Source: Janibacter sp. A1S7
Lineage (GTDB): Bacteria; Actinomycetota; Actinomycetes; Actinomycetales; Dermatophilaceae
Assembly: GCF_037198315.1 (NCBI RefSeq)
Contig: NZ_CP144913.1
Span: 1,178,001 to 1,242,000, forward strand
Direction of reading: 5' to 3'
DNA length: 64,000 bases
The translations under genes and the position numbers were made by a program. The notes beneath the pieces are model-generated. The model had not been told where the DNA came from and searched no databases. It saw nothing but the letters and a program-made list of their open reading frames with translations. Positions 9,732 to 64,000 of the stretch are shown here, one piece after another. The first letter of the stretch is position 1, and every line of letters starts with the position of its first letter.

Positions 9732-10145
9732 ATGCCCGTCGGCCCCAGCACGTACCGAGCTGCCCGCCTCGCCCACGCCCTGCGCGAGGCATCCGCGACC
9801 CCGGGAGCCCCGAGCCTGTGGGCGCGGATGCGCGCCGTCCCACGGATGGTCCGGGCCGTGCGGTCGGGGCAGTACACCGGCCTGACCTCGACGCGGCTGA
9901 TGATGCTGCTCGCCGGGATCGGGTACGTCGTCTCGCCGATCGACCTCGTCCCCGAGGGCCTCCTGCTCGTGGTCGGCCTCGTCGACGACGTCCTCGTCAT
10001 CGGGTGGGTTGCCACCGTGCTCCTGCGCGAGACGGAGGACTTCATCGTCTGGGAGCGGGACGCCGCCGCGTGGGCGGCACAGCACGGCCGGGATCACGCC
10101 GACCGTGGGGCGCGGACGGTGCCCTCCTACGTCGTCCCGGACTGA
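9732..10145 (+). CDS. YkvA family protein (DUF1232)
   Basis: A 137-residue small membrane protein. The DUF1232 signature is plain: GIGYVVSPIDLVPEG followed by LVDDVLVIGWV. Two hydrophobic helices span about residues 58-100, flanked by a basic N-terminus (RMRAVPRMVRAVRSGQY) and a charged C-terminus. The function of the family is unknown. The ATG follows GGAGGTGA with short spacing, and a TAGCCT (9697-9702) about 30 bp upstream could be its own -10. Confidence 0.8.
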   Translation: MPVGPSTYRAARLAHALREASATPGAPSLWARMRAVPRMVRAVRSGQYTGLTSTRLMMLLAGIGYVVSPIDLVPEGLLLVVGLVDDVLVIGWVATVLLRETEDFIVWERDAAAWAAQHGRDHADRGARTVPSYVVPD

Positions 10146-50206: not shown

Positions 50207-51082
50207 TCAGGTCGACGTGCGGGTCGGTTGGTCCGTCCACGGCAGCGATGACGGCAGGTCGTGGGGCACGGTTCCCGGGAAGTTCGGTGGGCGCTTGTCG
50301 AGGAAGGAGCGCACTCCCTCGATGGCGTCGGGGTTGGTGGGGAGGTCGCGGATGAGTTGCGAGTCGACCTCGTGGGCGGGGAAGGGAGAGGGCTCGCCGG
50401 CCAGTCGGGCGAGCATCTGTCGGGTGACGGCCACCGACACGGGTGCGGTGGTGTCGCGGATGTCGTGGGCCAGTGCCCGGGCTGCCCGGTGCACGTCGTG
50501 CGGTGCGTGGACGGATGTGAGCAGGCCGGATGCGAGGGCTTCGTCGGCGTCGAAGATCCGGCCGCTGATCATCCAGTCGCTGGCTCTGGTCATCCCGACC
50601 AGGCGTGGGAGGTACCAGGCGGATGCGCCCTCGGGGTAGATGCCCCGGCGGGTGAAGACGAGGCCGAAGCGTGAGTCGGTCGCGGCCAGGCGGAAGTCGC
50701 AGGAGAGGGTGATCGTCAGGCCTCCTCCCACGGCGGCGCCGTGGATGGCAGCGATGACGGGGGTGTTCATCAGGTGGATGGTCCGCGAGCAGCGTCCAGC
50801 GGGTTCCTGCCAGTGGTCCTGACCGGAGGTCTCGTCCCCTGCGCTGACGTCGAAGCCGCCCCCGCTCAGGTCGGCGCCGACGCAGAAGTCGGTGCCTGCG
50901 CCGGTGAGGATGACCACGCGCACGTCCTCGTCGCGATCGGCTCGCTGCAGCGCGTCCTCGAGCTCGTCGGACATGCGCAGGGTGTACCCGTTGCGCGCCT
51001 GCGGACGGTCCAGCCGGATCGTCGCGATCCGCTCCTCGACCTCGTAGGTGATGTCGCCGTAGTCACTGATGTCCATGCTCAC
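50207..51082 (-). CDS. Enoyl-CoA hydratase/isomerase family protein (last gene of catabolic operon)
   Basis: A 291-residue crotonase-fold protein. The oxyanion-hole segments are FCVGADLSGG and HGAAVGGGLTITLSCDFRLAA; a Glu is present in RRGIYPEGASAWYLPRLVG, in the catalytic region. It would hydrate or isomerise an enoyl-CoA. It is longer than LiuC-type hydratases, with a 30-residue extension (KRPPNFPGTVPHDLP). The start overlaps the tetR end; GTG 51082 or ATG 51076 are both possible after GGGAG. Last gene of the minus-strand operon. Confidence 0.85.
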   Translation of the reverse strand: MSMDISDYGDITYEVEERIATIRLDRPQARNGYTLRMSDELEDALQRADRDEDVRVVILTGAGTDFCVGADLSGGGFDVSAGDETSGQDHWQEPAGRCSRTIHLMNTPVIAAIHGAAVGGGLTITLSCDFRLAATDSRFGLVFTRRGIYPEGASAWYLPRLVGMTRASDWMISGRIFDADEALASGLLTSVHAPHDVHRAARALAHDIRDTTAPVSVAVTRQMLARLAGEPSPFPAHEVDSQLIRDLPTNPDAIEGVRSFLDKRPPNFPGTVPHDLPSSLPWTDQPTRTST

Positions 51083-51689
51083 TCATCTCCCGGTCGCCCG
51101 GATCGAGCTCGGCGGCCAGCATCTGCGACCAGGTGCGCACGATGCGGCGGCGGCGTTTGGAGTCGTCGGATAGCAGGTCCGCCAGTGCCAGACCACGGGC
51201 CAGGTCCAGCGTGGTCTGGATGAGCGTCCGCGCGTGAGGGTCGTGGTCATCGACCCCGAGGTGCTCCACGGCGGCCGCGTGCACCGACCGCGCGAAGCGA
51301 CGCTCGAGCGGCTGGATGATCTGCAGCATGTGCGGGTCCGATGCCGCCGCGACCCATGCCTGCAGAGCCGCCCTGAAGAGGTCGCCCATGTAGAGCTCGA
51401 CCAGTGTCGCCACCACGGCGTGCACGCGCTCGGCACCGGTCAACTGGGGCGGCGTCATGGCCTCGACCATCAGCCGCCGTTCGTCGAACATGTGCTCCAG
51501 CGCGGCGACGACCAGTTCCTCACGCGTCGGGAAGTGGTGCTGCAGGGCGCCGCGACTGATGCCGGCGTCGGCGGCGATGACCGAGACGGTCGCTGCGGAC
51601 CACCCGCGGGTGGCCACGCAGTGCACGGTCGACTCGAGCAGGCGCTGGCGGGTGGCCCGGCTGCGGTCCTGCTTCGGCTCGAGGCTCAC
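51063..51689 (-). CDS. TetR/AcrR family transcriptional regulator
   Basis: A 208-residue TetR regulator. The DNA-binding domain covers about residues 10-60 (TRQRLLESTVHCVATRGWSAATVSVIAADAGISRGALQHHFPTREEL, with TREEL in the usual helix 4 place). The ligand domain follows. It is encoded inside the operon between two hydratase genes, overlapping both, and probably senses an acyl-CoA and represses both divergent operons through the 34-bp palindrome at 59820-59853. AtuR and LiuR-type regulators of similar clusters are the functional analogy, not a proven orthology. Confidence 0.9.
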   Translation of the reverse strand: MSLEPKQDRSRATRQRLLESTVHCVATRGWSAATVSVIAADAGISRGALQHHFPTREELVVAALEHMFDERRLMVEAMTPPQLTGAERVHAVVATLVELYMGDLFRAALQAWVAAASDPHMLQIIQPLERRFARSVHAAAVEHLGVDDHDPHARTLIQTTLDLARGLALADLLSDDSKRRRRIVRTWSQMLAAELDPGDREMSEHGHQ

Positions 51690-52468
51690 GCCGACCAGCG
51701 GGGTGCGCGTCGCTGAAGGAAGGCGGTCATGCCCTCCTTGGCCTCCTCGCTGGAGAACAGGCGCGAGGACTGCGCGGCCACCCGATCACGGTGCTCGTCC
51801 AGGTGGGCGAGCAGCTCGTGGTTGACGAGCGCCTTGCTCTCGCGCAGGCCCTGCGGCGAGCACTTCGCGAGGTCGCCGGTGAGCGTGTCCAGGGCCGCGG
51901 TCAGGTCCTGCGCAGACTCGGTGACCATGCCGATGCGGGCCGCTTCGGCAGCGTCGAACTTCTCGCCGGTGAGGAACACCCGCGAGGCCGCCCGCGGGTC
52001 GATCCGCGGAAGGACGGTCAGTGAGATGACCGAAGCGGCCAGGCCGAGGCGCGACTCGGTCAGGGCGAAGGTCGCGGACGGTCCGGCGAGCACGATGTCG
52101 CAGGCGGCGACCAGGCCCATGCCGCCGGCGCGCACGTGCCCGTCGACGACTCCGACGACCGGCTTGGGCAGCGTGACGATGAGCCGGAGCAGGTCGACGA
52201 GCTCGTCCGCGCGAGCGCGGGCCGGGTCGTCCTCGGGGGCCGCGGACGCCTCGGACAGGTCCGCGCCCGCGCAGAAGGTGCCGCCGGTGTGGGTGAGCAC
52301 GACCGCGCGCACGGCCCCGTCGGCCGCCGCGGCCTCGAGCGCTTCGCGCAGCTGCCCCACGAGCAGGCCGGACAGCGCGTTGCGGTTGTGCGGAGAGTCC
52401 AGCGCCACCGTCGTGACACTGCCCGTTGTGGTCACGCTCACGCGTCGCTGCGTCTCCTGGGTGCTCAT
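51686..52468 (-). CDS. Enoyl-CoA hydratase, methylglutaconyl-CoA hydratase (LiuC/AtuE)-like
   Basis: A 260-residue crotonase-fold protein. FCAGADLSEA and VRAGGMGLVAACDIVLA form the oxyanion hole. ALTESRLGLAASVISLTVLPRI and the following RVFLTGEKFDAAEA resemble methylglutaconyl-CoA hydratases, where RLGLAPA-IS is typical and the second catalytic Glu of classical hydratases is replaced. Immediately downstream of the carboxylase, it would hydrate the carboxylated enoyl-CoA. It overlaps the carboxylase alpha gene and tetR by 4 bp each. Confidence 0.85.
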   Translation of the reverse strand: MSTQETQRRVSVTTTGSVTTVALDSPHNRNALSGLLVGQLREALEAAAADGAVRAVVLTHTGGTFCAGADLSEASAAPEDDPARARADELVDLLRLIVTLPKPVVGVVDGHVRAGGMGLVAACDIVLAGPSATFALTESRLGLAASVISLTVLPRIDPRAASRVFLTGEKFDAAEAARIGMVTESAQDLTAALDTLTGDLAKCSPQGLRESKALVNHELLAHLDEHRDRVAAQSSRLFSSEEAKEGMTAFLQRRAPRWSA

Positions 52469-54522
52469 GCCTCGTCCTGCCCTTCGCTGTCGTCCTCGAC
52501 CACGGCCAGCGTGGCGCCCTGCTCGACCTGCTGACCCGTCGAGACCGAGATCTCGACGACCGTGCCGGAGGCCGGGGCAGCCACCTCGTGCTCCATCTTC
52601 ATCGCCTCAAGGTAGAGCAGCGGCTGGCCCACCGTCACCTCGTCGCCGACCTCCACGGCGATGCCGATGATCGATCCCGGCATCGGCGCGACGAGCGTGC
52701 CGGCCGGCTTCTGCGCGGCCGGGTCGACGAAGCGCGGCAGCACCCGCAGCGTCAGGGAGCCCATGGGTGAGTCGACCGCGACCTGCGTGCCGGACCCGTC
52801 GGCGTCGTCGATCGTGGCGACGTCGAAGCGCCGGCGCACCCCGTCGAGGTCGATGACGACGGACCCTGCGGTGGCCTCGACGAGTTCGATGCTCGTCACG
52901 TCCGCCGGGAGTGTCTCCACCTCGAGCCCCTCGTGGCCGATGCGGTACCCGACGTGGATCTCCCGGTCGCCGTGACCGAAGCCGCGGCGTTGGAAGATGC
53001 TCGGCACATTGCGGAACCCACCACTGACGGTCCCGAGCACCGTGCGCTCGGTACGCTGCCGTGCGCCGTCGGCGATCGAGGCCACGAGCGCGGCCAGGTC
53101 GGGGGCGAGAGCAGCGTCAGCGGTCAGCGAGGTGGGGTCGTGCCGGTCGTAGAAGCTCGTGTCCGCGGTACCGGCAAGCATCTCCGGGTGGAGCAGACTC
53201 GCCACGAGCAGGTCCCGATTGGTCGCCAGACCGTGCACCCGGCCGCGTCGCAGCGCGGAGGCGAGCTCACGAGCTGCCTCGGCGCGGGTCGGGGCGAAGG
53301 AGATCACCTTGGCGATCATGGCGTCGTAGTGGGTGCCGATGACCGAGCCGACCTCGACGCCGGAATCCAGGCGCAGACCGTGGTGCGCCGGGATCGCGAA
53401 GTGCGAGGTCACCCCCGGCAGGTCGAGCGCGGCGACGGTCCCCGTCTGCGGGCGCCAGTCGTCGCCCGGATCCTCGGCGTAGAGCCGGGCCTCCATCGAC
53501 CACCCCCGGGGGCTCGGCTCGTCCCCGATGAGCTGCCGGCCCTCGGCGACCTCGATCTGCAGACCGACCAGGTCGGTGCCGGTGACGCACTCGGTGACCG
53601 GGTGCTCCACCTGCAGTCGGGTGTTCATCTCGAGGAAGAAGAAGGACCCGTCCGGCATGGCGAGGAACTCGACGGTGCCGGCTCCGCGGTAGCCGACGGC
53701 AGCAGCAGCGTTGCGTCCGGCGTCGAGCAGCGCGGTGCGCATCTGCTCACCGACCCGGTCGACGAGCGGCGAGGGCGCCTCTTCGATGACCTTCTGGTGG
53801 CGTCGCTGCAGAGAGCACTCGCGCTCACCGAGGGCCCACACGGTGCCGTGGGCATCCGCCATGATCTGGACCTCGACGTGGTGACCGGACTCGAGGTATC
53901 GCTCGACGAAGACGGTCGGGTCGCCGAAGGCGGACGCGGCCTCACGGGAGGCGGAGGCGACGGCGTCGTCGATCTCGGCCAGGCTGCGCACGATGCGCAT
54001 CCCCCGGCCGCCGCCTCCCGAGGAGGCCTTGACGAGCACCGGGAGGTGCTCCTGCGCGACCTCGGCCGGGTCGAGGCGGTTGAGCACCGGGACGCCGGCA
54101 TCGGCCATCCGCTGCTTGGACTCGACCTTGCTGCCCATGATCCGGATGGCCTGCGGGTCGGGTCCGATCCAGGTCAGGCCGGCCGAGAGGACCTGCTCGG
54201 CGAAGTCGGCGTTCTCGGACAGGAAGCCGTAGCCGGGGTGGATCGCGTCCGCCCCGGCCCGCTGGGCGGCCTCGATGATCAGGTCGCCGCGCAGGTAGGT
54301 CTCGCCCGGAGCGTTGCCGGGCAGGTGCACGGCGGCATCCGCGTCGGTGACGTGGGGACTGCCGGCGTCGGCGTCGGAGAAGACCGCCACGGTGGTGATG
54401 CCGCGCCGACGGCAGGCCGCGAAGACGCGTCGGGCGATCTCGCCGCGGTTGGCGACCAGGACTGTGGAGATCGCGCCGCTGGTGGTGGGGGTGGTGCCGG
54501 AAGGTTCAGGCTGAGTGGTCAT
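52465..54522 (-). CDS. Acyl-CoA carboxylase alpha subunit (biotin carboxylase + BCCP), MCC/GCC type
   Basis: A 685-residue fused subunit. The biotin carboxylase part starts at VLVANRGEIARRVFAACRRRG, has the ATP-grasp loop KASSGGGGRGMR, RECSLQRRHQKVIEEAP and EMNTRLQVEHPVTE. A linking BT-like domain follows, then the biotinyl domain with Lys642 in EAMKMEHEV. It carboxylates biotin with bicarbonate and ATP for the beta subunit. Domain layout fits methylcrotonyl- or geranyl-CoA carboxylase alpha. The ATG is preceded by GAGG and lies 7 bp after the beta-subunit stop. Confidence 0.92.
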   Translation of the reverse strand: MTTQPEPSGTTPTTSGAISTVLVANRGEIARRVFAACRRRGITTVAVFSDADAGSPHVTDADAAVHLPGNAPGETYLRGDLIIEAAQRAGADAIHPGYGFLSENADFAEQVLSAGLTWIGPDPQAIRIMGSKVESKQRMADAGVPVLNRLDPAEVAQEHLPVLVKASSGGGGRGMRIVRSLAEIDDAVASASREAASAFGDPTVFVERYLESGHHVEVQIMADAHGTVWALGERECSLQRRHQKVIEEAPSPLVDRVGEQMRTALLDAGRNAAAAVGYRGAGTVEFLAMPDGSFFFLEMNTRLQVEHPVTECVTGTDLVGLQIEVAEGRQLIGDEPSPRGWSMEARLYAEDPGDDWRPQTGTVAALDLPGVTSHFAIPAHHGLRLDSGVEVGSVIGTHYDAMIAKVISFAPTRAEAARELASALRRGRVHGLATNRDLLVASLLHPEMLAGTADTSFYDRHDPTSLTADAALAPDLAALVASIADGARQRTERTVLGTVSGGFRNVPSIFQRRGFGHGDREIHVGYRIGHEGLEVETLPADVTSIELVEATAGSVVIDLDGVRRRFDVATIDDADGSGTQVAVDSPMGSLTLRVLPRFVDPAAQKPAGTLVAPMPGSIIGIAVEVGDEVTVGQPLLYLEAMKMEHEVAAPASGTVVEISVSTGQQVEQGATLAVVEDDSEGQDEA

Positions 54523-54529
54523 CAATTCC

Positions 54530-56128
54530 TCACATCCGGAAGACGCCGAAGGACGAGGTGCCCTCGACCGGTGCGGTGTGGACGGCGGACAGGGCGATGC
54601 CGAGGACGTCACGGGTGTCCCGGGGGTCGATGATGCCGTCGTCGTAGACCAGACCGGACAGGACCATGGGCATGGCCTCGGCGGCGATCTGCGCCTCGAC
54701 GGCGGTGTGCATCGCCTGGGCGCCCTCCTCGTCGAAGGGCTTGCCCTGCGCCAGGGCGGATGCGCGCGAGACGTTCGTGACGACATCGGCCAGCTGGGTG
54801 GCACCCATGACCGACGAGCGGGCCGAGGGCCAGGTGAAGACGAACCTGGGGTCGTAGGCCCGTCCGCACATCCCGTAGTGCCCGGCGCCGTAGGAGTTGC
54901 CCAGCAGCAGCGAGATGTGCGGCACGGTCGAGTTGGACACGGCGTTGATCATCATCGAGCCGTGCTTGATGATCCCGCCCTGCTCGTACTCCTTGCCGAC
55001 CATGTACCCGGTGGTGTTGTGCAGGAAGAGCAGCGGGGTGTTCGAGCGGTTGGCCAGCTGGATGAACTGCGTCGCCTTCTGCGACTCCTCGCTGAAGAGC
55101 ACGCCCCGGGCGTTGGCGAGGATGCCGACGGGGAAACCGTGCAGCTGGGCCCAGCCGGTGACGAGCGAGGAGCCGTAGAGCGGCTTGAACTCGTCGAAGT
55201 CGCTGTCGTCGACGATCCGGGCGATGACCTCACGGGGGTCGAAGGGGGACTTCAGGTCCGGCGGCACGATCGACAGCAGCTCCTGCGCCGGGTAGCGCGG
55301 CGGCCTGGGCGTACTCGTCGCCGGACCGGAGGCCTTGCGGTGGTTCAGTCGCGCGACGATGTTGCGTCCGATGCGGATGGCGTCCTGCTCGTCGAGCGCG
55401 TAGTGGTCGGCCAGCCCGGAGACGCGGGCATGCATGTCCGCACCGCCGAGGGACTCGTCGTCCGACTCCTCGCCGGTGGCCGCCTTGACCAGCGGCGGGC
55501 CGGCCAGGAAGACCTTGGACTGCTCCTGGATCATCACGACGTGGTCGCTCATGCCCGGCAGGTAGGCGCCACCGGCCGTCGAGTTGCCGAAGACGAGGGC
55601 GATGGTCGGGATGCCGGCCTGGGACAGGCGGGTGAGGTTGCGGAAGGTCGCCCCGCCGGGGATGAAGATCTCCTTCTGGGTCGGCAGGTCCGCGCCGCCG
55701 GACTCCACGAGGGAGATCACCGGCAGCCGGTTGGCCAGCGCGACCTCGTGCATCCGCAGGGTCTTCTTCAGTGACGGCGGATTGCTCGTCCCTCCCTTGA
55801 CGGTGGGGTCGTTGGCCAGCAGGAGGCACTCGACGCCGCTGACGAGGCCGATGCCGGCGACCACCGAACCGCCGACCGGGAAGTCCGACCCGTACCCGGC
55901 CAGCGGCGCCAGCTCCAGGAAGGGGGAGTCCAGGTCCAGGAGCAGCTCGATGCGCTCGCGGGCGGTCAGCTTGCCGCGCGCGTGGTGGCGGGCGGTGTAC
56001 TTCTCCCCGCCGCCGGCCACGGCCCTGGCGACCTCCACCCCGATGTCGGCGAGGGAGGCCTGCATGGCCTCGGCCGCCTCCTGTGCCTGCGGGCTGGTGG
56101 GGTCGAGGGTGCTGCTGAGGATCGTCAT
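54530..56128 (-). CDS. Acyl-CoA carboxylase beta subunit (carboxyltransferase), MCC/GCC type
   Basis: A 532-residue carboxyltransferase. GYGSDFPVGGSVVAGIG, NDPTVKGGTSNPPSLKKTLR, LVESGGADLPTQ and GNSTAGGAYLPGMSDH fit the methylcrotonyl/geranyl-CoA group, and so do FLHNTTGYMVGKEYEQGGIIKHG and the C-terminal GVFRM. It transfers the carboxyl from biotin to the gamma carbon of a beta-methyl enoyl-CoA. It overlaps the acyl-CoA dehydrogenase gene by 4 bp. The choice between a 5-carbon and a terpenoid substrate cannot be made by eye. Confidence 0.92.
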   Translation of the reverse strand: MTILSSTLDPTSPQAQEAAEAMQASLADIGVEVARAVAGGGEKYTARHHARGKLTARERIELLLDLDSPFLELAPLAGYGSDFPVGGSVVAGIGLVSGVECLLLANDPTVKGGTSNPPSLKKTLRMHEVALANRLPVISLVESGGADLPTQKEIFIPGGATFRNLTRLSQAGIPTIALVFGNSTAGGAYLPGMSDHVVMIQEQSKVFLAGPPLVKAATGEESDDESLGGADMHARVSGLADHYALDEQDAIRIGRNIVARLNHRKASGPATSTPRPPRYPAQELLSIVPPDLKSPFDPREVIARIVDDSDFDEFKPLYGSSLVTGWAQLHGFPVGILANARGVLFSEESQKATQFIQLANRSNTPLLFLHNTTGYMVGKEYEQGGIIKHGSMMINAVSNSTVPHISLLLGNSYGAGHYGMCGRAYDPRFVFTWPSARSSVMGATQLADVVTNVSRASALAQGKPFDEEGAQAMHTAVEAQIAAEAMPMVLSGLVYDDGIIDPRDTRDVLGIALSAVHTAPVEGTSSFGVFRM

Positions 56129-57294
56129 GCCGTCAGTCCCATCCGTCGTGCGGCCATCTGGTTGAGGATCTCGACGGTGCCTCCGCCGATGCCGATGATG
56201 CGCATGTCGCGGTACTGCCGCTCGATCTCGCACTCGGCCATGTAGCCCATCCCGCCGAAGAGCTGGAGCGCCTCGTGGGCCACCCACTCGCCGGCTCGGG
56301 TGGCGGTGTTCTTCGCGAAGCACACGGCCGGGATGAGCGAGGTCAGGTCCTCGCCGGCCTCGTGGCGGTCGACCACGGCCCGGGTGTACGTGCGCGCGAC
56401 GTCGATGCGTGAGGCCATCTCGACGAGGGTGTTCTGCACCGACTGCCGCGAGATGAGCGGCTCGCCGAAGGTCGTGCGCTCCCGGCACCATGCCGTGGCC
56501 AGGTCCATGCAGCGCTGGGCTTGCGAGTAGGCCTGTGCGGCCATGGCGATCCGCTCGGTGAGGAAGGCGCTGCCGATGAGCAGGAAGCCGGCGTTCTCCG
56601 GGCCGATGAGGTTGGTGGCCGGCACCCGCACGTCCGTGAAGGACAGCTCGGCGGTGTCCGAGCACCGCCAGCCCAATTTCTCCAGCCGGCGGCCGACCTC
56701 GAACCCGGGGGTGCCCTTCTCGATGACGACCAGCGACAGGCCGCGCCCACCGGGGTGCTCCCGGCCGCCGGTGCGTACCGCCGTCGTGACGAAGTCGGCG
56801 CGGACCCCGGAGGTGATGTACGTCTTGGCGCCGTTGACGACGTAGTCGTCGCCGTCGCGGCGCGCGGTGGTGCGCAACCCGTTCACGTCGGATCCGCCGT
56901 CCGGCTCGGTGATCGCCAGGGCGCCGATCTGCTCACCGGCCAGGGTCGGGGCCACCCAGCGGTCGATCTGCGCCGGGTCGCCCGCGGTGACGATGTGCGG
57001 ACAGGCGATGCCGGCCGTGAAGAGGGATGCGTAGGCCCCGCCGGCGCCCCCGGCCTCGTGGAAGGCCTCGGTGACGGTGACCCCGGCCCGCTGGCCGCCG
57101 CCTTCGCCCCCGGCGTGCTCGGGGAAGCTCGCGCCGAGCAGCCCCTGCCGTGCGGCGGCGGCGTGCAGCGAGCGGGGCAGCTCCCCTGCGCGCTCCCAGT
57201 CGTCCTGGTGCGGCAGGACCTCGCGCTCGACGAACTGACCCGTCGTTTCGCGCAGGGCGCTGATCTCGTCGGTGTACCAGTCGGCGTGGCTCAT
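56125..57294 (-). CDS. Acyl-CoA dehydrogenase (minus operon)
   Basis: A 389-residue FAD enzyme. ALAITEPDGGSDVNGLRTTARRDGDDYVVNGAKTYITSG covers the FAD/substrate-binding beta domain and HEALQLFGGMGYMAECEIERQYRDMR the C-terminal helical domain. The AECEIERQYRD pattern occurs in isovaleryl-/citronellyl-CoA-type and other short-branched dehydrogenases. It would introduce the alpha-beta double bond before carboxylation. It overlaps both neighbours by 4 bp (ATGA), so expression with the AtuA-type protein and carboxylase is tightly coupled. Confidence 0.9.
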   Translation of the reverse strand: MSHADWYTDEISALRETTGQFVEREVLPHQDDWERAGELPRSLHAAAARQGLLGASFPEHAGGEGGGQRAGVTVTEAFHEAGGAGGAYASLFTAGIACPHIVTAGDPAQIDRWVAPTLAGEQIGALAITEPDGGSDVNGLRTTARRDGDDYVVNGAKTYITSGVRADFVTTAVRTGGREHPGGRGLSLVVIEKGTPGFEVGRRLEKLGWRCSDTAELSFTDVRVPATNLIGPENAGFLLIGSAFLTERIAMAAQAYSQAQRCMDLATAWCRERTTFGEPLISRQSVQNTLVEMASRIDVARTYTRAVVDRHEAGEDLTSLIPAVCFAKNTATRAGEWVAHEALQLFGGMGYMAECEIERQYRDMRIIGIGGGTVEILNQMAARRMGLTA

Positions 57295-59027
57295 CGGTGG
57301 TCCTCGGGGGGCGAAGGGAGCAGGTGGTCGGGGATGTCGACGTGCCGGGAGCGCAGCCACTCGCCCAGCCCCTTGGCCTGCGGGTCGAAGCGCGCGTTGT
57401 AGGCCACGCCCTCGCCCAGCAGGTCGTGGACGACGATGTTCACCGCCAGCAGGTTCGGCAGGTGGGTCACCGTAACCGGCAGGTCGGCGGCCTCGGGCAG
57501 CAGCTGCCGGATCCGCTCGGGAGTGAGCAGCGCGGACAGCCACGGCCAGGCCGCCGCGTCGCGCACCCACACGCCGACGTTGGCGTGACCGCCCTTGTCG
57601 CCGGAGCGGGCCCCGGCGATCGTGCCCAGCGGCGCCGTCGTCGTCGGCCACCCCGTCGGCGCGGGGTTCGCCGCTGCGGGCTGGCCGGTGAGCGGTTCGA
57701 GCGCCTGGGTCCGCTGCGGGGGACCCACGGCCACGACGGTGCCGTCGTCGAGGACGACCTCGTGCTCGGGGACCGACTGCGGGACGTAGCCGGGGGTGAA
57801 GACGCCGTACGGGGACCCTCCCGAGGGTGGCGCGAGCGTGTGGCAGCCGGGGTAGGTGCCCAGGGCGATGTCGATGCCGGCCTGGGAGAAGGGGCGGCCG
57901 ACGACCTTCGGGTCGCTGTCGCGGGCGACGACGGTCAGCAGCGCCGCGGCCTGCTGCTGGGTGGGGGCGTCGGGTCGGTCGGTGCGCGCGAGCGTCCACG
58001 TCATCTCGGCGGGGGAGGTGGTCAGCTCCTCCTCGAACTGCCGTTGGACGAGCTCCGCCTTCGCCCGGATGTCCAGTCCCGTCAGGACCATCGTCATCTC
58101 GTTGCGGAAGCCGCCGAGGGCGTTCAGCGACACCTTGACGTCCGGCGGGGGAGCCTCGCCCCGGATGCCGGTCATCGAGACCCGGTCCGGCCCGTCCTGG
58201 GCCAGGACGATCGTGTCCAGGCGGGTCGTGACGTCCGGACCCGGGTAGCGGGCGTCGGCGATCTCGTAGAGCAACTGACTCTTGATGGTGTCGACGGTCA
58301 CGGCGCCGCCGGTCCCGGGGTGCTTGGTGATGATGCTGGAGCCGTCGCGACGGATCTCGGCGAGGGGGAAGCCGAGGTGGCTGAAGTTGTCGATCTCGGT
58401 GAAGAAGGCGTAGTTGCCACCGGTGGCCTGGGTGCCGCACTCGATGACGTGTCCCGCGGCCGTGGCTCCGGCGAGGGCGTCCAGGTCCTCGCGGCCCCAC
58501 CCGAAGTGGGCGATGGCCGGGCCGACGATGACCGAGGCGTCCGTGACCCGTCCGGTGACGACGATGTCGGCGCCGGAGTCGACGGCACGGGCGATGCCGA
58601 AACCGCCGAGGTAGGCGTGCGCCCCCATCGGCCGGCCCAGATCGAGCGCGGCGGCGCGCGGGGTCAGGTCGTCGCCGCGGACGTGGGCGACCCTCGGGGA
58701 GAGTCCCTGCTCGGTGGCGAGCTCGCGGATGGCGCTGACGAGGCCGGGGGTGTTGACGCCACCGGCGTTGGCGACGATCGTCACGCCCTTCTCGAGGGCC
58801 AGTCCGAGGCAGTCCCGCAGCTGCACCAGGAAGGTCCTGGCGTACCCGGTGTCCGGATCCTTGAGCCGGTCGCGGCCGAGGATGAGCATCGTCAACTCGG
58901 CCAGCCAGTCGCCGGTGAGGACGTCCAGCTCGCCACCCTCGAGCATCTCGCGCATCGCGGAGAGCCGGTCGCCGTAGAAGCCGGAGCAGTTGCCGACCCG
59001 CAGCACCTCCCGTTCGGCGGCGCTCAT
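57291..59027 (-). CDS. Acyclic terpene utilization AtuA family protein (DUF1446)
   Basis: A 578-residue protein of the AtuA family: an N-terminal DUF1446 part (LRVGNCSGFYGDRLSAMREMLEGGELDVLTGDWLAELTM, then NAGGVNTPGL and VTGRVTDASVIVGPA) and a C-terminal AtuA-like domain from about residue 465 (TIAGARSGDKGGHANVGVWV). In Pseudomonas the atuA gene heads the citronellol/geraniol degradation cluster, but its biochemical role is unknown. Its position directly before the dehydrogenase and carboxylase genes repeats the Atu order. ATGA overlaps occur at both ends. Confidence 0.9.
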   Translation of the reverse strand: MSAAEREVLRVGNCSGFYGDRLSAMREMLEGGELDVLTGDWLAELTMLILGRDRLKDPDTGYARTFLVQLRDCLGLALEKGVTIVANAGGVNTPGLVSAIRELATEQGLSPRVAHVRGDDLTPRAAALDLGRPMGAHAYLGGFGIARAVDSGADIVVTGRVTDASVIVGPAIAHFGWGREDLDALAGATAAGHVIECGTQATGGNYAFFTEIDNFSHLGFPLAEIRRDGSSIITKHPGTGGAVTVDTIKSQLLYEIADARYPGPDVTTRLDTIVLAQDGPDRVSMTGIRGEAPPPDVKVSLNALGGFRNEMTMVLTGLDIRAKAELVQRQFEEELTTSPAEMTWTLARTDRPDAPTQQQAAALLTVVARDSDPKVVGRPFSQAGIDIALGTYPGCHTLAPPSGGSPYGVFTPGYVPQSVPEHEVVLDDGTVVAVGPPQRTQALEPLTGQPAAANPAPTGWPTTTAPLGTIAGARSGDKGGHANVGVWVRDAAAWPWLSALLTPERIRQLLPEAADLPVTVTHLPNLLAVNIVVHDLLGEGVAYNARFDPQAKGLGEWLRSRHVDIPDHLLPSPPEDHR

Positions 59028-59797
59028 GCCCGGGCCCGTCGGGGGGCGCCGGCGAAGACCTGCGCGATGGACAGCCACTCCACGGCCTCGCCGGTGGCGT
59101 GCAGGTCGGTGTCAGCGGCGTCCCGACGCTGGGTGACGACCAGGCAGAAGTCCTGCGCGGGCCCGGTCACCCGGTCGGCGCTGCGCTCACCGTCCTCGTC
59201 ACCCCAGATCCACAGGTCCCCGTCGGGCCCGGTGAGCTCGATCCGAAAGGGCTGGACCGGGGGAGTGAGGTCGTTGATGAGGTAGGCGAAGTCTCGGGTG
59301 CGGACTCCCAGATGGCAGATGTCACGCAGGCGCGCCGTGGGAGCGCGCCGGACCCCGAGGGCGTCGGCGACGTCCTGACCGTGCGCCCACGTCTCCATCA
59401 GACGGGCGGTGGCCATCGAGCGGGGGCTCATCGGGGGTCCGAACCACGGCAGCTTGGTGTCAGCGGGGGCATCGCGCAGGACCTGCGCGAGCGTCTCCCG
59501 ACCGTCCCGCCAACGGGCGAGGATCTCGGCGGGGGTGTCGACGGCGCCCTGCTCCGTGCGGGTGTCCACGTGCCCCACGGGGTCCTGCACGGCGATCTCG
59601 ACCTCGTCGGCGAATGCCTGCGGATCGGTGGTGGCGACGGCCGCGATCTCATCGGTCCACGCCAGGTGGGCGATCTGGTGGGCGATCGTCCACCCCTGCG
59701 CCGGGGTCGATTGTGCCCAGGCTTCGTCGTCGAGGTCGGCGACGAGGACGTCGAGGTCGGCGCACTCGTCGAGGAAGGAGGCCACGGTGTCGCTCAT
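59024..59797 (-). CDS. DinB/mycothiol-type metal-binding protein (TIGR03084-like), first gene of the minus operon
   Basis: A 257-residue protein with a DinB-like four-helix N-terminal domain of the mycothiol-dependent maleylpyruvate isomerase type. The metal-ligand His cluster is suggested by GWTIAHQIAHLAWTDEIA (about 36-53) and METWAHGQDVADAL (about 136-149). Family members are actinobacterial and many lie in lipid or acyl-CoA clusters; the reaction is unknown, and a mycothiol-linked isomerase or detoxifying step is possible. ATG 59797 lacks a ribosome site and lies 7 nt after a -10-like CACGCT. Confidence 0.8.
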   Translation of the reverse strand: MSDTVASFLDECADLDVLVADLDDEAWAQSTPAQGWTIAHQIAHLAWTDEIAAVATTDPQAFADEVEIAVQDPVGHVDTRTEQGAVDTPAEILARWRDGRETLAQVLRDAPADTKLPWFGPPMSPRSMATARLMETWAHGQDVADALGVRRAPTARLRDICHLGVRTRDFAYLINDLTPPVQPFRIELTGPDGDLWIWGDEDGERSADRVTGPAQDFCLVVTQRRDAADTDLHATGEAVEWLSIAQVFAGAPRRARA

Positions 59798-59810
59798 GGG
59801 CCAGAGCGTG
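59798..59810 (-). promoter_or_regulatory. Candidate leaderless promoter of the minus catabolic operon
   Basis: On the minus strand TTGCTT (59833-59828), 17 bp, CACGCT (59810-59805), 7 nt, ATG 59797. The -10 is poor, but the geometry mirrors the plus-strand promoter exactly. Confidence 0.4.
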
Positions 59811-59819
59811 GCACGTTGC

Positions 59820-59853
59820 CACCAAACAAGCAAGCATGCTTGCTTGTTTGGTG
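59820..59853. promoter_or_regulatory. Perfect 34-bp palindromic operator between the divergent catabolic operons
   Basis: The left half CACCAAACAAGCAAGCA (59820-59836) is matched without error by its complement in 59837-59853. The centre (59836.5) is exactly midway between the two start codons (59797 and 59876). The -35 elements of both candidate promoters lie inside it, so a bound TetR dimer (or dimer pair) would block both. The in-operon TetR at 51063-51689 is the likely ligand-responsive repressor. Confidence 0.85.
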
Positions 59854-59862
59854 ATTCGCGGC

Positions 59863-59875
59863 TAGCGTCCCGGCC
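59863..59875 (+). promoter_or_regulatory. Candidate leaderless promoter of the plus catabolic operon
   Basis: TTGCTT (59840-59845, inside the palindrome), 17-bp spacer, TAGCGT (59863-59868), 7 nt, ATG 59876. No Shine-Dalgarno precedes the ATG, so transcription and translation probably start at the same base. Confidence 0.5.
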
Positions 59876-61021
59876 ATGCGCCTCACTGATGAGCACTCCG
59901 CCTTCCGCGCCAGCGTGCGGGCCTTCGTCGAGTCCGAGATCAACCCGCGTGCGGACGAGTGGGAGGCGGCTGGCATCTTCCCGGCCCACGAGCTCTTCCC
60001 CAAGGCGGCCGCCCTCGGGCTGTTCGGTCTCGAGTACGACACCGAGTTCGGGGGAGAGGGGGCTGACCACTCCTTCCAGATGGTCGCCGCCGAGGAGCTC
60101 GGTCGGTGCGACTCGGCCGGTGTCTCGATGGCCATCGGCGTCCAGTCGATGATGGCCACCCCGTCGTTGGCGCAGTTCGGTACCGACGAGCTCAAGCGCA
60201 CCTACCTGGCCCCGGCGCTCGCCGGCGAGATGGTGACGGCGATCGCCGTCACCGAGCCGGACACCGGGTCCGACGTCTCACGCCTGCGCACGAAGGCGCG
60301 ACGCGACGGCGACGACTGGGTGATCACCGGACGCAAGACGTACATCACCAACGGCACCCAGGCCGATTGGCTCTGCCTGTTGGTCCGCACGTCCGACGAG
60401 GGTGGACACCGCGGGATGTCCCAGATCATCGTCCCGACGAACAGTCCCGGCTTCTCGGTGGCCAAGCGCCTGGACAAACTCGGTAACCGCAGCTCCGACA
60501 CCGCTGAGCTCGTCCTCGACGAGGTCAGGGTGCCCGTGTCGAACACGATCGGAGAGATCGGCCGTGGCTTCCAGCAGCAGATGGCGCAGTTCGTCATCGA
60601 GCGGATGTTCGCTGCCTACAACGCCGTCGGCAGCTGCGACCGCGCCCTCGAACGCACCCGGGGCTACATCGCCGAGCGTGAGGTCTTCGGCCAGCCACTG
60701 GCCACGAAGCAGTACGTGACCTTCCGTCTGGCGGAGCTGCAGGCCCGGGTGGAACTGCTGCGCAGCCACAACGCGGCCGTCTGTGAGGCACATCTGGCGG
60801 GCGAGGACATCATCCGCGGTGCCAGCGTCGCCAAGCTGACCGCGGGCAGGCTCATCCGCGACGTCGCCGACTCCTGCATCCAGTTCCACGGCGGGATGGG
60901 GTACATGGAGGAGACGTGGACGGCACGTTTCCTGCGCGACACCCGGCTCGCGTCGATCGGTGGCGGCGCCGACGAGGTCATGCTCCAGGTCCTGGCCCGC
61001 CTCGACGGGATGCCCGCGTGA
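59876..61021 (+). CDS. Acyl-CoA dehydrogenase (plus operon), citronellyl-CoA dehydrogenase-like
   Basis: A 381-residue FAD enzyme: ITDEHSAFRASVRAFVESEINP-type N-terminal helices, the beta domain AIAVTEPDTGSDVSRLRTKARRDGDDWVITGRKTYITNGTQADWL, and the C-terminal FHGGMGYMEETWTARFLRDTRLASIGGGADEVM. The ADEVM position is where short-chain dehydrogenases keep their catalytic Glu. It is a second dehydrogenase beside that of the minus operon, suggesting a second oxidation step or a different chain length. Its stop shares one base with the next ATG (TGATG). Confidence 0.9.
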   Translation: MRLTDEHSAFRASVRAFVESEINPRADEWEAAGIFPAHELFPKAAALGLFGLEYDTEFGGEGADHSFQMVAAEELGRCDSAGVSMAIGVQSMMATPSLAQFGTDELKRTYLAPALAGEMVTAIAVTEPDTGSDVSRLRTKARRDGDDWVITGRKTYITNGTQADWLCLLVRTSDEGGHRGMSQIIVPTNSPGFSVAKRLDKLGNRSSDTAELVLDEVRVPVSNTIGEIGRGFQQQMAQFVIERMFAAYNAVGSCDRALERTRGYIAEREVFGQPLATKQYVTFRLAELQARVELLRSHNAAVCEAHLAGEDIIRGASVAKLTAGRLIRDVADSCIQFHGGMGYMEETWTARFLRDTRLASIGGGADEVMLQVLARLDGMPA

Positions 61022-62580
61022 TGGACCACGGATTCGGCAGCTGGGCCACCATCCACCACCTCCGCAACGCAGACCGCGTGGCCTACGTGGACGGGCTCGC
61101 CGGCGTGCAGACCACCTACGCCCAGCTCGAGGAGCGGACCAACCGGTTGGCCGACGCACTGCGGGCGAAGGGGGTGTCACACGGTGAACGGGTGGCGCTT
61201 CTGTGCCTCAACAGCCCGCAGATGATGGAGATCTATCTCGCGGTCGCCAAGCTGGGAGCCATCAGCGTGCCGGTGAACTTCCGCCTGCACCCCGATGAGA
61301 TCGCCCATGTCCTCAGCGACTCCGGAGCGAGCCTGCTCTTCGTCAGCACCCCCTTCGTCGATGCTGCAACGCAGGCCCTGGCGAGCGGGACGTCCGTGCG
61401 CGAGACGATCCGGGTACCGGCACTGGCTGAGCGGGAAGCAGGCGAAGGGGGCGACTACGAGCCCCTCGTGTCCTCGGGCGCCTCCGAGCGGGTCGTGGCC
61501 GACGTGGGACACGACGACGTGTGCGTGATCATGTACACCTCCGGCACGACGGGACGTCCGAAGGGCGCCATGCTCACCCACGGCAACTTCTTCTACAACG
61601 CCATCAACGCGATGGGGTTCGCCTCGGGCATCGGACGCACCGATGTCACGATCTCGGCCGCGCCCCTCTTCCACATCGGGGCGCTCGGGGTGCACACCCT
61701 GCCCTTCCTCTTCGTCGGTGCCGGCGTCGTGGTGATCGAGGCCTTCACCCCGGACCAGTGGGTCGAGGCAGCCGCACGACACCACGTGACGCAGGCCTTC
61801 CTCGTCCCGGCGATGTGGGCGGCCGTCGCTGCGTCGCCGGCACTGGAGACGGCGGACCTGTCCTCCCTTCGACTGGCGATCAGCGGCGGGGCGCCCTGCC
61901 CACTGCCGGTGATCTCCGCGATGAAGAGCCACGGGGTGGCCTTCACCGAGGGCTTCGGCATGACCGAGACCTCACCCAATGCCGCGTGCCTCCAGCCGGA
62001 GGACGTCGTCGAGCACGCGGGCTCGGTCGGGCGACCGGTCGCCTTCATGGACTTCCGGATCCTCGACGAGATGGACCAGGACGTCCCCGTCGGGCACGTC
62101 GGTGAGCTCTGCCTGCGGGGCCCGAGCGTCTTCGTGGGGTACTGGGACAAGCCCGAGGCAACGGCCGAGGCGATCCGGGACGGCTGGTTCCACACCGGCG
62201 ACATGGCCCGGGTCGACGAGGAGGGCTTCTACAGCCTCGTCGACCGGAAGAAGGACATGATCATCACCGGCGGGGAGAACGTCTACCCGATCGAGGTCGA
62301 GCAGGTGCTCTACGGACATCCTGACGTCGTCGAGGTCGCGGTGATCGGGGTCCTCGACGAGACCTGGGGCGAGACCGTCGCCGCCGTCGTCGTGCGCGCC
62401 GCGGACTCGAGCCTCACCGCCGACGGGTTGCGCGAGTGGGCCCGGGAGCGGATCTCGCACTTCAAGGCACCCCGTCGAGTGGCCTTCGTCGACGAGCTGC
62501 CCCGCAACGCCACCGGCAAGATCCTCAAGCGCGAGCTGCGCATCACCGAGGGCGGCGGCCACACGGCCGTCTCCCGCTGA
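61021..62580 (+). CDS. AMP-dependent acyl-CoA ligase
   Basis: A 519-residue adenylate-forming ligase. The P-loop is MYTSGTTGRPKGAMLTHGN (about residues 171-189), then TEGFGMTETSPNA and DGWFHTGDMARVDEEGFYSLVDRKKDMIITGGENVYP, with the catalytic Lys in PRNATGKILKRELR. It would activate the free acid that feeds the dehydrogenases (AtuH-like role by position). GTG 61018 directly precedes ATG 61021; either could be used. The SDR gene follows after 20 bp. Confidence 0.9.
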   Translation: MDHGFGSWATIHHLRNADRVAYVDGLAGVQTTYAQLEERTNRLADALRAKGVSHGERVALLCLNSPQMMEIYLAVAKLGAISVPVNFRLHPDEIAHVLSDSGASLLFVSTPFVDAATQALASGTSVRETIRVPALAEREAGEGGDYEPLVSSGASERVVADVGHDDVCVIMYTSGTTGRPKGAMLTHGNFFYNAINAMGFASGIGRTDVTISAAPLFHIGALGVHTLPFLFVGAGVVVIEAFTPDQWVEAAARHHVTQAFLVPAMWAAVAASPALETADLSSLRLAISGGAPCPLPVISAMKSHGVAFTEGFGMTETSPNAACLQPEDVVEHAGSVGRPVAFMDFRILDEMDQDVPVGHVGELCLRGPSVFVGYWDKPEATAEAIRDGWFHTGDMARVDEEGFYSLVDRKKDMIITGGENVYPIEVEQVLYGHPDVVEVAVIGVLDETWGETVAAVVVRAADSSLTADGLREWARERISHFKAPRRVAFVDELPRNATGKILKRELRITEGGGHTAVSR

Positions 62581-62600: not shown

Positions 62601-63428
62601 ATGACCGCGAATCTTCAGGGACGCACGATCCTCATGTCCGGCGGCAGCCGCGGCATCGGACTGGCCATCGCCGAGCGGGCTGCCCGGGACGGCGCCAACG
62701 TCGCCATCGTCGCCAAGACGGATACCCCGCACCCGAAGCTCGAAGGCACCATCCACACCGCCGCCGCTGCCATCGAGGCCGCCGGTGGTCGGGCGCTGCC
62801 GATCCTCGGCGACGTCCGCTCCGAGGAGTCGGTCCAGGAGGCCGTGGACCGCACCGTCGAGCGCTTCGGTGGCATCGACATCGTCGTCAACAACGCCAGC
62901 GCCATCGACCTCTCTCCCACGGAGGAGCTGCCGATGAAGAAGTACGACCTGATGCAGGACATCAACTGCCGCGGGTCCTTCCTCCTGGCGAAGACCGCGC
63001 TGCCGCAGCTGAAGGCATCCGAGGCGGCACACGTGCTCACCCTCTCGCCGCCGATCAACCTCGCACCGCGCTGGGCCGGTAGCCACCTGGGCTACACCAT
63101 CGCCAAGTACGGGATGAGCCTGGTCACGCTCGGCCTGGCCGAGGAGTGGGCCACGTACGGCATCGCGGCGAACAGCCTGTGGCCCAGGACGGCCATCGCC
63201 ACGGCGGCCGTGGAGAACCTCCTCGGCGGCGAGCAGACGATGGCCCGCAGCCGCAGCCCGCAGATCATGGCCGATGCGGCCCACGCGATCCTCACCCGGG
63301 ACCCTGCAGAGTTCACCGGACACTTCCTCATCGACGACGACGTCCTCGCCGAGGAAGGTGTCACCGACCTCTCCTCCTACGGGCCGCCGCTCGAGGAGCT
63401 CCTGCCCGACTTCTTCCTCGGCGAGTGA
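62601..63428 (+). CDS. Short-chain dehydrogenase/reductase (AtuB/AtuG- or HSDL2-like)
   Basis: A 275-residue classical-type SDR. The cofactor loop is SGGSRGIGLAIAERAARDG (about residues 13-31), with NNAS following; the catalytic pair is Tyr165 and Lys169 (GYTIAKYGMS). LSPPINLAPRWAGSHLGYTIAKYG resembles the HSDL2-like SDR group, to which AtuB/AtuG belong. It may oxidise a terpenol, aldehyde precursor or hydroxyacyl-CoA; this is inference from context. ACAGGAG precedes ATG 62601 by 9 nt. Confidence 0.85.
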   Translation: MTANLQGRTILMSGGSRGIGLAIAERAARDGANVAIVAKTDTPHPKLEGTIHTAAAAIEAAGGRALPILGDVRSEESVQEAVDRTVERFGGIDIVVNNASAIDLSPTEELPMKKYDLMQDINCRGSFLLAKTALPQLKASEAAHVLTLSPPINLAPRWAGSHLGYTIAKYGMSLVTLGLAEEWATYGIAANSLWPRTAIATAAVENLLGGEQTMARSRSPQIMADAAHAILTRDPAEFTGHFLIDDDVLAEEGVTDLSSYGPPLEELLPDFFLGE

Positions 63429-63472: not shown

Positions 63473-64000
63473 ATGCAACCCGACCTGTCACTCGTGGACC
63501 CCCTCGAGTACAACCTCGCGACCCGCACCAACGCGGGTGACGTCATCATCCGCTCGGCCGCGATCTTCCCCGACCGGGTGGCGATCGTGGACGGCGATCG
63601 TGAGGTGACCTACCGGGAGCTCGCCGAGACGGTGGACCGTCTCGGCCACGCACTGCTGGGTCTGGACCTGCCCGCCGGAAGCCCGGTGGCGCTGACGATG
63701 ATGAACTCCTGGCGGTTGCTGGCGACCTACTACGCCTGCGCCCGCGCCGGGCTGGTGTGCATGCCGCTGAACTTCCTGCTGGCCGGGGAGGACCAGGCCT
63801 GGATCCTGCAGGATGCGACGCCGCGCGCGCTCGTCACCGACGCGGCGTTCCGACCGTTGCACGAGCAGGTGCTGCCCGGCGTGACCTCCGTGGAGCACGT
63901 CATCGTCACCGACGAGGAGAGCCCGCAGCCCGTGGCCGGGCGGTCGACGCACCACTGGCAGTCGCTCGTCGACCGGGCGCCGGCGACGCCCCTGGAGGTG
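63473..64000 (+). CDS. AMP-dependent acyl-CoA ligase, N-terminal part (runs off the window)
   Basis: 176 codons are visible from ATG 63473 (AAGGA about 8 nt upstream). The start LEYNLATRTNAGDVIIRSAAIFPDRVAIVDGDREVTYRELAETVDRLGHAL and the later ARAGLVCMPLNFLLAGEDQAWILQDATPRALVTD are the N-terminal subdomain of an acyl-CoA ligase. The ATP-binding P-loop lies beyond the end. It is a second ligase in the same operon, 44 bp after the SDR, perhaps for another chain length or a pathway intermediate. Confidence 0.85.
   Translation, partial: MQPDLSLVDPLEYNLATRTNAGDVIIRSAAIFPDRVAIVDGDREVTYRELAETVDRLGHALLGLDLPAGSPVALTMMNSWRLLATYYACARAGLVCMPLNFLLAGEDQAWILQDATPRALVTDAAFRPLHEQVLPGVTSVEHVIVTDEESPQPVAGRSTHHWQSLVDRAPATPLEV

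Follow-up and report, generated by a model that had tools for sequence, protein, structure and literature searches.

The two divergent operons in the 64-kb stretch of DNA analysed here (the window) very likely share a single TetR-family operator, a palindrome laid across two leaderless promoters, through which one site would control both operons. An earlier note on this DNA had proposed one operator over both -35 elements, two leaderless promoters and a co-encoded TetR protein, and this arrangement is supported by comparison with relatives, in the conservation of the site, its association with the TetR gene and the covariation of the two. The result appears to be a familiar kind of switch, and a tidy example of one, in which the palindrome is very probably the docking site of the encoded repressor.

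The operon on the minus strand opens with a TIGR03084-family protein (59024..59797; 329.6 bits against a cut-off of 247.95) whose ATG is a predicted leaderless start, followed by an AtuA-family protein (57291..59027; PF07287), which is present as a single copy in the genome and whose ATG at 59027 overlaps the preceding stop, with GTG 59078 as an alternative start. Then come an acyl-CoA dehydrogenase (56125..57294), assigned by sequence and sharing 38-41% identity with its plus-strand counterpart in several loci, an acyl-CoA carboxylase beta subunit (54530..56128), a biotin carboxylase (alpha) subunit (52465..54522) recognised by eye and from its conserved position, an enoyl-CoA hydratase family protein (51686..52468; NF005879, above cut-off), the TetR-family regulator (51063..51689; PF00440), which association and covariation with the operator mark as the predicted repressor at the palindrome, and a second enoyl-CoA hydratase (50207..51082) that overlaps tetR by 20 nt. 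When the AtuA start is taken as ATG 59027, six of the seven junctions between these genes overlap and the seventh is a 7-nt gap, and because the overlap is nearly continuous, tetR is very probably read from the minus promoter. The plus-strand operon begins with another acyl-CoA dehydrogenase (59876..61021), again with a predicted leaderless ATG, and continues with an acyl-CoA synthetase (61021..62580) and a short-chain dehydrogenase of the PRK08278 type (62601..63428), and a further acyl-CoA synthetase-like gene, recognised by eye, that runs out of the window (63473..64000). Among named organisms, Janibacter supplies the closest relatives of both AtuA and TetR. For the carboxylase beta subunit, the next best genomic copy is 37% identical, and the closest PDB match is the methylcrotonyl-CoA carboxylase beta subunit (554 bits), with geranyl-CoA carboxylase ranking sixth (485.5 bits). 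We rejected naming the pathway from this subunit, and leucine/isovalerate, a terpenoid or another branched acid are all still candidates.

The palindrome, CACCAAACAAGCAAGCA/TGCTTGCTTGTTTGGTG, occupies 59820-59853 between the two operons and is perfect over 34 bp, just as first described: its arms (59820-59836 and 59837-59853) are 100% complementary and free of any spacer, and its centre at 59836.5 does lie 39.5 bp from the A of both ATGs, at 59797 on the minus and 59876 on the plus strand. Perfect palindromes of this length are expected by chance at about 6e-5 per 64 kb of the window's composition, and 20 windows simulated with a Markov-1 model yielded none longer than 22 bp, a few of them reaching 20-22 bp. 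The window's own runner-up is likewise 22 bp and intragenic, at 60232-60253 within the acyl-CoA dehydrogenase gene. A scan of the genome (3.36 Mb, one contig) with the palindrome's central 20 bp found no second copy within 3 mismatches, its six matches all falling on this one site, read from either strand or in a shifted frame.

The site is kept well beyond this genome. Among the AtuA relatives retained (the best 80 of 397 in the species collection), it lies ahead of the operon in all 80 loci as a 22-bp version; 77 match the main pattern, and three Rhodococcus loci (L070, L074 and L080) carry one substitution and match a wider pattern. With the substitution-tolerant pattern the site was found in 100 of 101 regions, made up of the 80 loci, 19 further stretches, one plasmid locus and the window. 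The only miss (L131) was a stretch that ended at the first gene, and when this locus was taken again as L211 the site was there, with one mismatch. The operator consensus is WAACAAKCANGCNNGMTTGHTT. Around AtuA in the proteobacterial plasmid loci H16, H17 and H98 no annotated TetR gene was seen, the gene tables of these plasmids being incomplete. Judged by the comparison between species, the palindrome is functional.

Each promoter has the layout originally read from the window. The plus promoter reads TTGCTT (59840..59845), 17 bp, TAGCGT (59863..59868), 7 nt and ATG, and on the minus strand TTGCTT (59828..59833) is followed by 17 bp, CACGCT, 7 nt and ATG, so that both -35 elements do fall inside the palindrome. 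Inspection by eye also bore out the lack of a ribosome site, the 22 nt before each ATG holding no Shine-Dalgarno-like sequence. The minus -10-like hexamer is where it was said to be, but it departs from TANNNT and makes a poor plain -10; an extended -10, TGC-CACGCT (59805..59813), is the better reading, and this form is kept in relatives. This minus-type promoter, TTG-17-TGn-nAnnnT, occurs in 94 of 96 distinct sequences of operator plus 40 nt (mean 0.27 and maximum 2 when the downstream 40 nt are shuffled). At other spacings the motif is found with 13 bp in 19 of the 96, since TTG is often repeated 4 bp away, and with each of the remaining spacings from 12 to 22 bp in 0 or 1. The plus-type promoter, TTG-17/18-TAnnnT followed by the start, is present in all 15 divergent loci, that is, the window and 14 relatives (shuffled mean 0.07, maximum 3), while in these relatives 5-21 of the 35 nt before the dehydrogenase ATG are identical to the window. 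These promoter counts are not independent because many of the loci belong to one genus.

In all 15 divergent loci, including 14 of 14 relatives, the -10 ends 6-8 nt ahead of the start on both sides. In leaderless actinobacterial genes TANNNT is found at such a distance from the start (PMC3898074; PMC3160421, in the parts of these papers available). Because the -35 in the operator and the -10 at 6-8 nt before the start are both kept in 15 of 15 loci, both transcripts are predicted to be leaderless. On the AtuA side, 14 of the 15 loci have the start in the reading frame of the first known gene. At L011 (Leekyejoonella; 9933-9980) the ATG at leaderless distance begins a reading frame of 15 codons. 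Its TGA overlaps the ATG of atuA, which gives the impression that a mini-ORF has taken the place of the TIGR03084 gene, of which the locus holds no match. Over a wider set of 100 loci, an AtuA-side start stands at leaderless distance in 40 and is missing in 60, 50 of the latter being named Nocardia; the placements behind these figures were picked as the best of several and therefore lean to the motif, the spacing count over 96 sequences being the fair test. In the 50 named Nocardia loci (in the range L014-L079) the AtuA-side promoter is retained and no start codon stands at leaderless distance; other Nocardia loci (e.g. L021, L024 and L082) have one.

That the regulator acting at the palindrome is the TetR protein at 51063-51689 is very likely on the comparative evidence. 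The protein has an N-terminal TetR helix-turn-helix domain (PF00440, 42 bits against a cut-off of 24), its model (mean pLDDT 90.6) has the all-helical TetR fold, and the 50 best PDB matches listed by the fold search are all regulators by title, most of them named TetR-like. No clue to a ligand came from the PDB sequence and fold searches with this protein, which returned general TetR matches alone. We surveyed 296 genomes of the class, 71 of which have this TetR at E up to 1e-40. A strict form of the site is present in 14 of the 296 genomes, in 14 of the 71 with the TetR and 0 of the 225 without it (p 7e-10, a figure that ignores kinship), and a reversed control pattern gave no match among the matches listed for the 296. 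Thirteen of these 14 genomes carry the site on the same contig as tetR and no more than about 10 kb from it. In the other (G206, locus L125) the strict site lies on a different contig than tetR, at G206:C33:234742-234762, and is perhaps a second target or part of a second cluster. The strict pattern is missing from 57 of the 71 TetR genomes, where looser forms were found. We also took the surroundings of each of the 70 other TetR genes, 43 of them with the same recognition helix and 27 diverged. A site was found in 42 of the 43 (40 with zero mismatches to the loose pattern and 2 with one), each time no more than 200 nt from the first gene match; the exception, L163, stops where its contig does. 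No shuffled stretch came below 2 mismatches to this loose pattern.

The diverged TetRs, which are 41-48% identical, add a second line of evidence. We compared residues in 141 TetRs, including those of the 71 of 80 AtuA loci that extend to tetR, in groups that we drew ourselves. All 114 proteins of the first type have Q at residue 50. In the 27 diverged ones this position is taken by L (25), V (1) or R (1), and 26 of them have Q at residue 49. A tighter AACAAGC-type dyad occurs somewhere in 109 of the 114 Q50 loci, and 22 of the 27 diverged loci have AACAGTC or GACTGTT in the 220 nt preceding tetR (shuffled mean 0.24, maximum 2). The two classes of site were scored by different rules, and a Fisher test of residue 50 against site class was set aside for that reason. 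Five of the 27 (L191, L197, L199, L202 and L210) do not fit the changed half-site, and L199 has a mixed site ahead of its AtuA-side gene. The half-site thus usually differs where residues 49-50 of the recognition helix differ, as expected if the TetR reads the palindrome. The diverged proteins come from three families, 24 from one, 2 from a second and 1 from a third, and with 24 of 27 in a single family the covariation may be a single event. In the diverged loci (L172, L180 and L186-L210) AACAGTC/GACTGTT usually sits immediately ahead of tetR, and the AtuA-side gene follows about 700 bp further on. This placement of the changed operator suggests that in this group tetR has shifted to the operon's front end.

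The exact symmetry of operator and start codons, which the earlier note had singled out, is real in the window, but as a functional need it is not supported. Over the 15 divergent loci the best-scoring centre lies 38.5-41.5 bp from the start on the dehydrogenase side and 36.5-41.5 bp on the other, and the two distances are equal in 5 of the 15. We therefore rejected exact symmetry as a requirement. The spacing from start to start stays within 77-82 bp in all 15, and given this and the variable distances to the centre, the symmetry is best regarded as a by-product of the compact layout. In most relatives the operator is a 22-bp dyad (the perfect core being 0-20 bp in 12 of the 14 divergent ones), and in the window and L013 the 34-bp palindrome amounts to two 22-bp registers offset by 4 bp, which in the window run from 59824 to 59845 and from 59828 to 59849. 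Full symmetry arises in the window because each of the two registers in its palindrome lines up with one promoter, and with the 4-bp offset each promoter meets an identical arrangement.

We infer TetR binding, repression, an inducer and leaderless translation from these sequence features, and the model that we favour is as follows. The palindrome would be the operator of the TetR encoded by the seventh gene of the minus operon, and a dimer on the dyad would cover the -35 elements of both promoters and block RNA polymerase both ways. One site would then silence the AtuA/carboxylase operon together with the divergent acyl-CoA dehydrogenase/synthetase operon, and with tetR itself inside the silenced minus operon this would form a feedback loop. 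A metabolite of the pathway, perhaps an acyl-CoA, may release the TetR, although acyl-CoAs as inducers are a guess. Both transcripts would begin at the ATG or within 1-2 nucleotides of it and be translated leaderless. Near-symmetry would follow from the two -35 elements lying in the two arms, followed by fixed spacers and fixed distances from -10 to ATG.

Other readings of the same features need to be weighed against this model. Hairpins, terminators and repeats can also contain long perfect palindromes, and the element could owe its form to structure or chance with no regulator involved. Yet there is no loop between the arms, only a single genomic copy exists, and place and sequence are conserved while the flanks have diverged. 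With the chance expectation of 6e-5 per window and the simulations also against it, we rejected this reading as scarcely credible. It is considerably less far-fetched, if still improbable, that the palindrome serves a regulator encoded elsewhere and that the operon's TetR acts at other sites, given that such a genome encodes many TetR-family proteins (31 first-look candidates here). Against this stand the confinement of strict sites to genomes with this TetR, the change of half-site with the recognition helix, and the position of the diverged group's site, mostly just upstream of tetR.

The operator may have been identified correctly and one or both transcripts still start upstream, with leaders, the -10-like hexamers being there by chance. 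CACGCT is indeed far from TANNNT, and the 60 of 100 loci (the 50 named Nocardia included) whose AtuA-side promoter has no start at leaderless distance lend this some weight. However, the -10 elements keep a fixed distance from the operator whether or not a start is nearby, they stand 6-8 nt from the start on both sides of every divergent locus, and no Shine-Dalgarno-like sequence was seen by eye, so we regard upstream starts as unlikely. Within the favoured model of a shared TetR operator, there is also the question of whether the window's palindrome takes two dimers at once, one per 22-bp register, or one dimer in either. QacR binds its operator as pairs of dimers; the two registers here, 4 bp apart, are each positioned alike to their own promoter, and the same 34-bp form recurs in L013. 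One 22-bp dyad nevertheless seems to be enough, with a perfect core of 0-20 bp in 12 of 14 divergent relatives, and we consider joint occupancy conceivable but rather the less probable of the two.

Among described systems, the nearest are AtuR and RdmA of Pseudomonas, TetR repressors that act on the atu and dmg clusters via AGCAAGCGCTTGG and CCAAGCGCTTGCT, as far as the available part of PMC9973270 goes. As there, a TetR-family regulator stands beside a cluster of AtuA, carboxylase, dehydrogenase and hydratase genes, the published half-site AGCAAGC/GCTTGCT is close to that of the window, and the site adjoins a promoter. Unlike the window's operator, theirs consists of two 13-bp repeats, AGCAAGCGCTTGG and CCAAGCGCTTGCT, set 40-42 bp apart and without the central 2 bp (PMC9973270, same part); the window has a single dyad, its arms AAGC/GCTT and its centre longer by 2 bp. 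An Acinetobacter atu cluster includes a divergent TetR gene, and CCAAGCGCTTGCT precedes its atuA. On an Acinetobacter plasmid (L158:3499-3514) CCAAGCGCTTGCTTGG, which includes one published AtuR repeat, lies between a divergent TetR gene and atuA, and no second repeat was seen by eye in the 201 bases there. Against the AtuR-like TetR of the Acinetobacter cluster, the window's TetR shows 30% identity along 53 residues, all within the DNA-binding domain. Because the likeness to this AtuR-like protein (which is not AtuR itself) is confined to that domain, with no full-length homology, we did not file the window's TetR as AtuR: the half-site is alike and the protein is not. To go by these comparisons, the system is one that works like AtuR and differs from it on two counts, the repeats and the full-length protein.

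TetR-family repressors of close divergent genes are common, and TetR itself has an 81-bp intergenic region (PMC3511530, available part). Like such TetR/tetA-type pairs, the window has what we predict to be a site for a TetR-family dimer between close divergent genes, but here the regulator comes seventh in one operon and leaderless transcripts are predicted on both sides. AccR of Streptomyces avermitilis, whose site is given as GTTAA-N6-TTAAC in the part of PMC10933834 available, resembles the predicted repressor as an actinobacterial TetR acting on acyl-CoA carboxylase, dehydrogenase and hydratase genes; we rejected identity with it, the window's palindrome being unlike that site. The prpD/Rv1129c pair of Mycobacterium tuberculosis is another divergent actinobacterial pair that is leaderless both ways, as is predicted for the window, with both mRNAs beginning at the start codons and TANNNT just upstream, but the window has a shared operator holding both -35 elements and none is described for that pair in the available part of PMC3898074.

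No description of this actinobacterial TetR/operator pair was found in the titles and abstract openings among the matches listed, subscription papers lying mostly outside the search, and six operator fragments searched for in papers gave no title on a bacterial TetR operator among the matches listed. It is only tentatively that we put forward a TetR-operator lineage new to the searched literature, which would control AtuA/acyl-CoA-carboxylase clusters in at least five actinobacterial families and is unlike the AtuR type over the full length of the protein, with nearly the same half-site. One branch would have the compact two-way leaderless promoter with starts 77-82 bp apart, two dimers sharing the 34-bp palindrome here, one per promoter, and in another branch residues 49-50 would change with a rewritten operator.

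The analysis provides a precise operator consensus and a candidate regulator for an acyl-CoA cluster that is widespread in actinobacteria and for whose control we found no description, and with these the inducer, and through the inducer the substrate, can be sought directly. Among related species this same promoter is sometimes followed at leaderless distance by a start codon and sometimes not, which offers a natural comparison for the gain or loss of leaderless starts. Finally, the paired difference between recognition helix and half-site is likely to represent a natural specificity switch attached to this TetR-operator system, of a kind relevant to TetR-type sensors.
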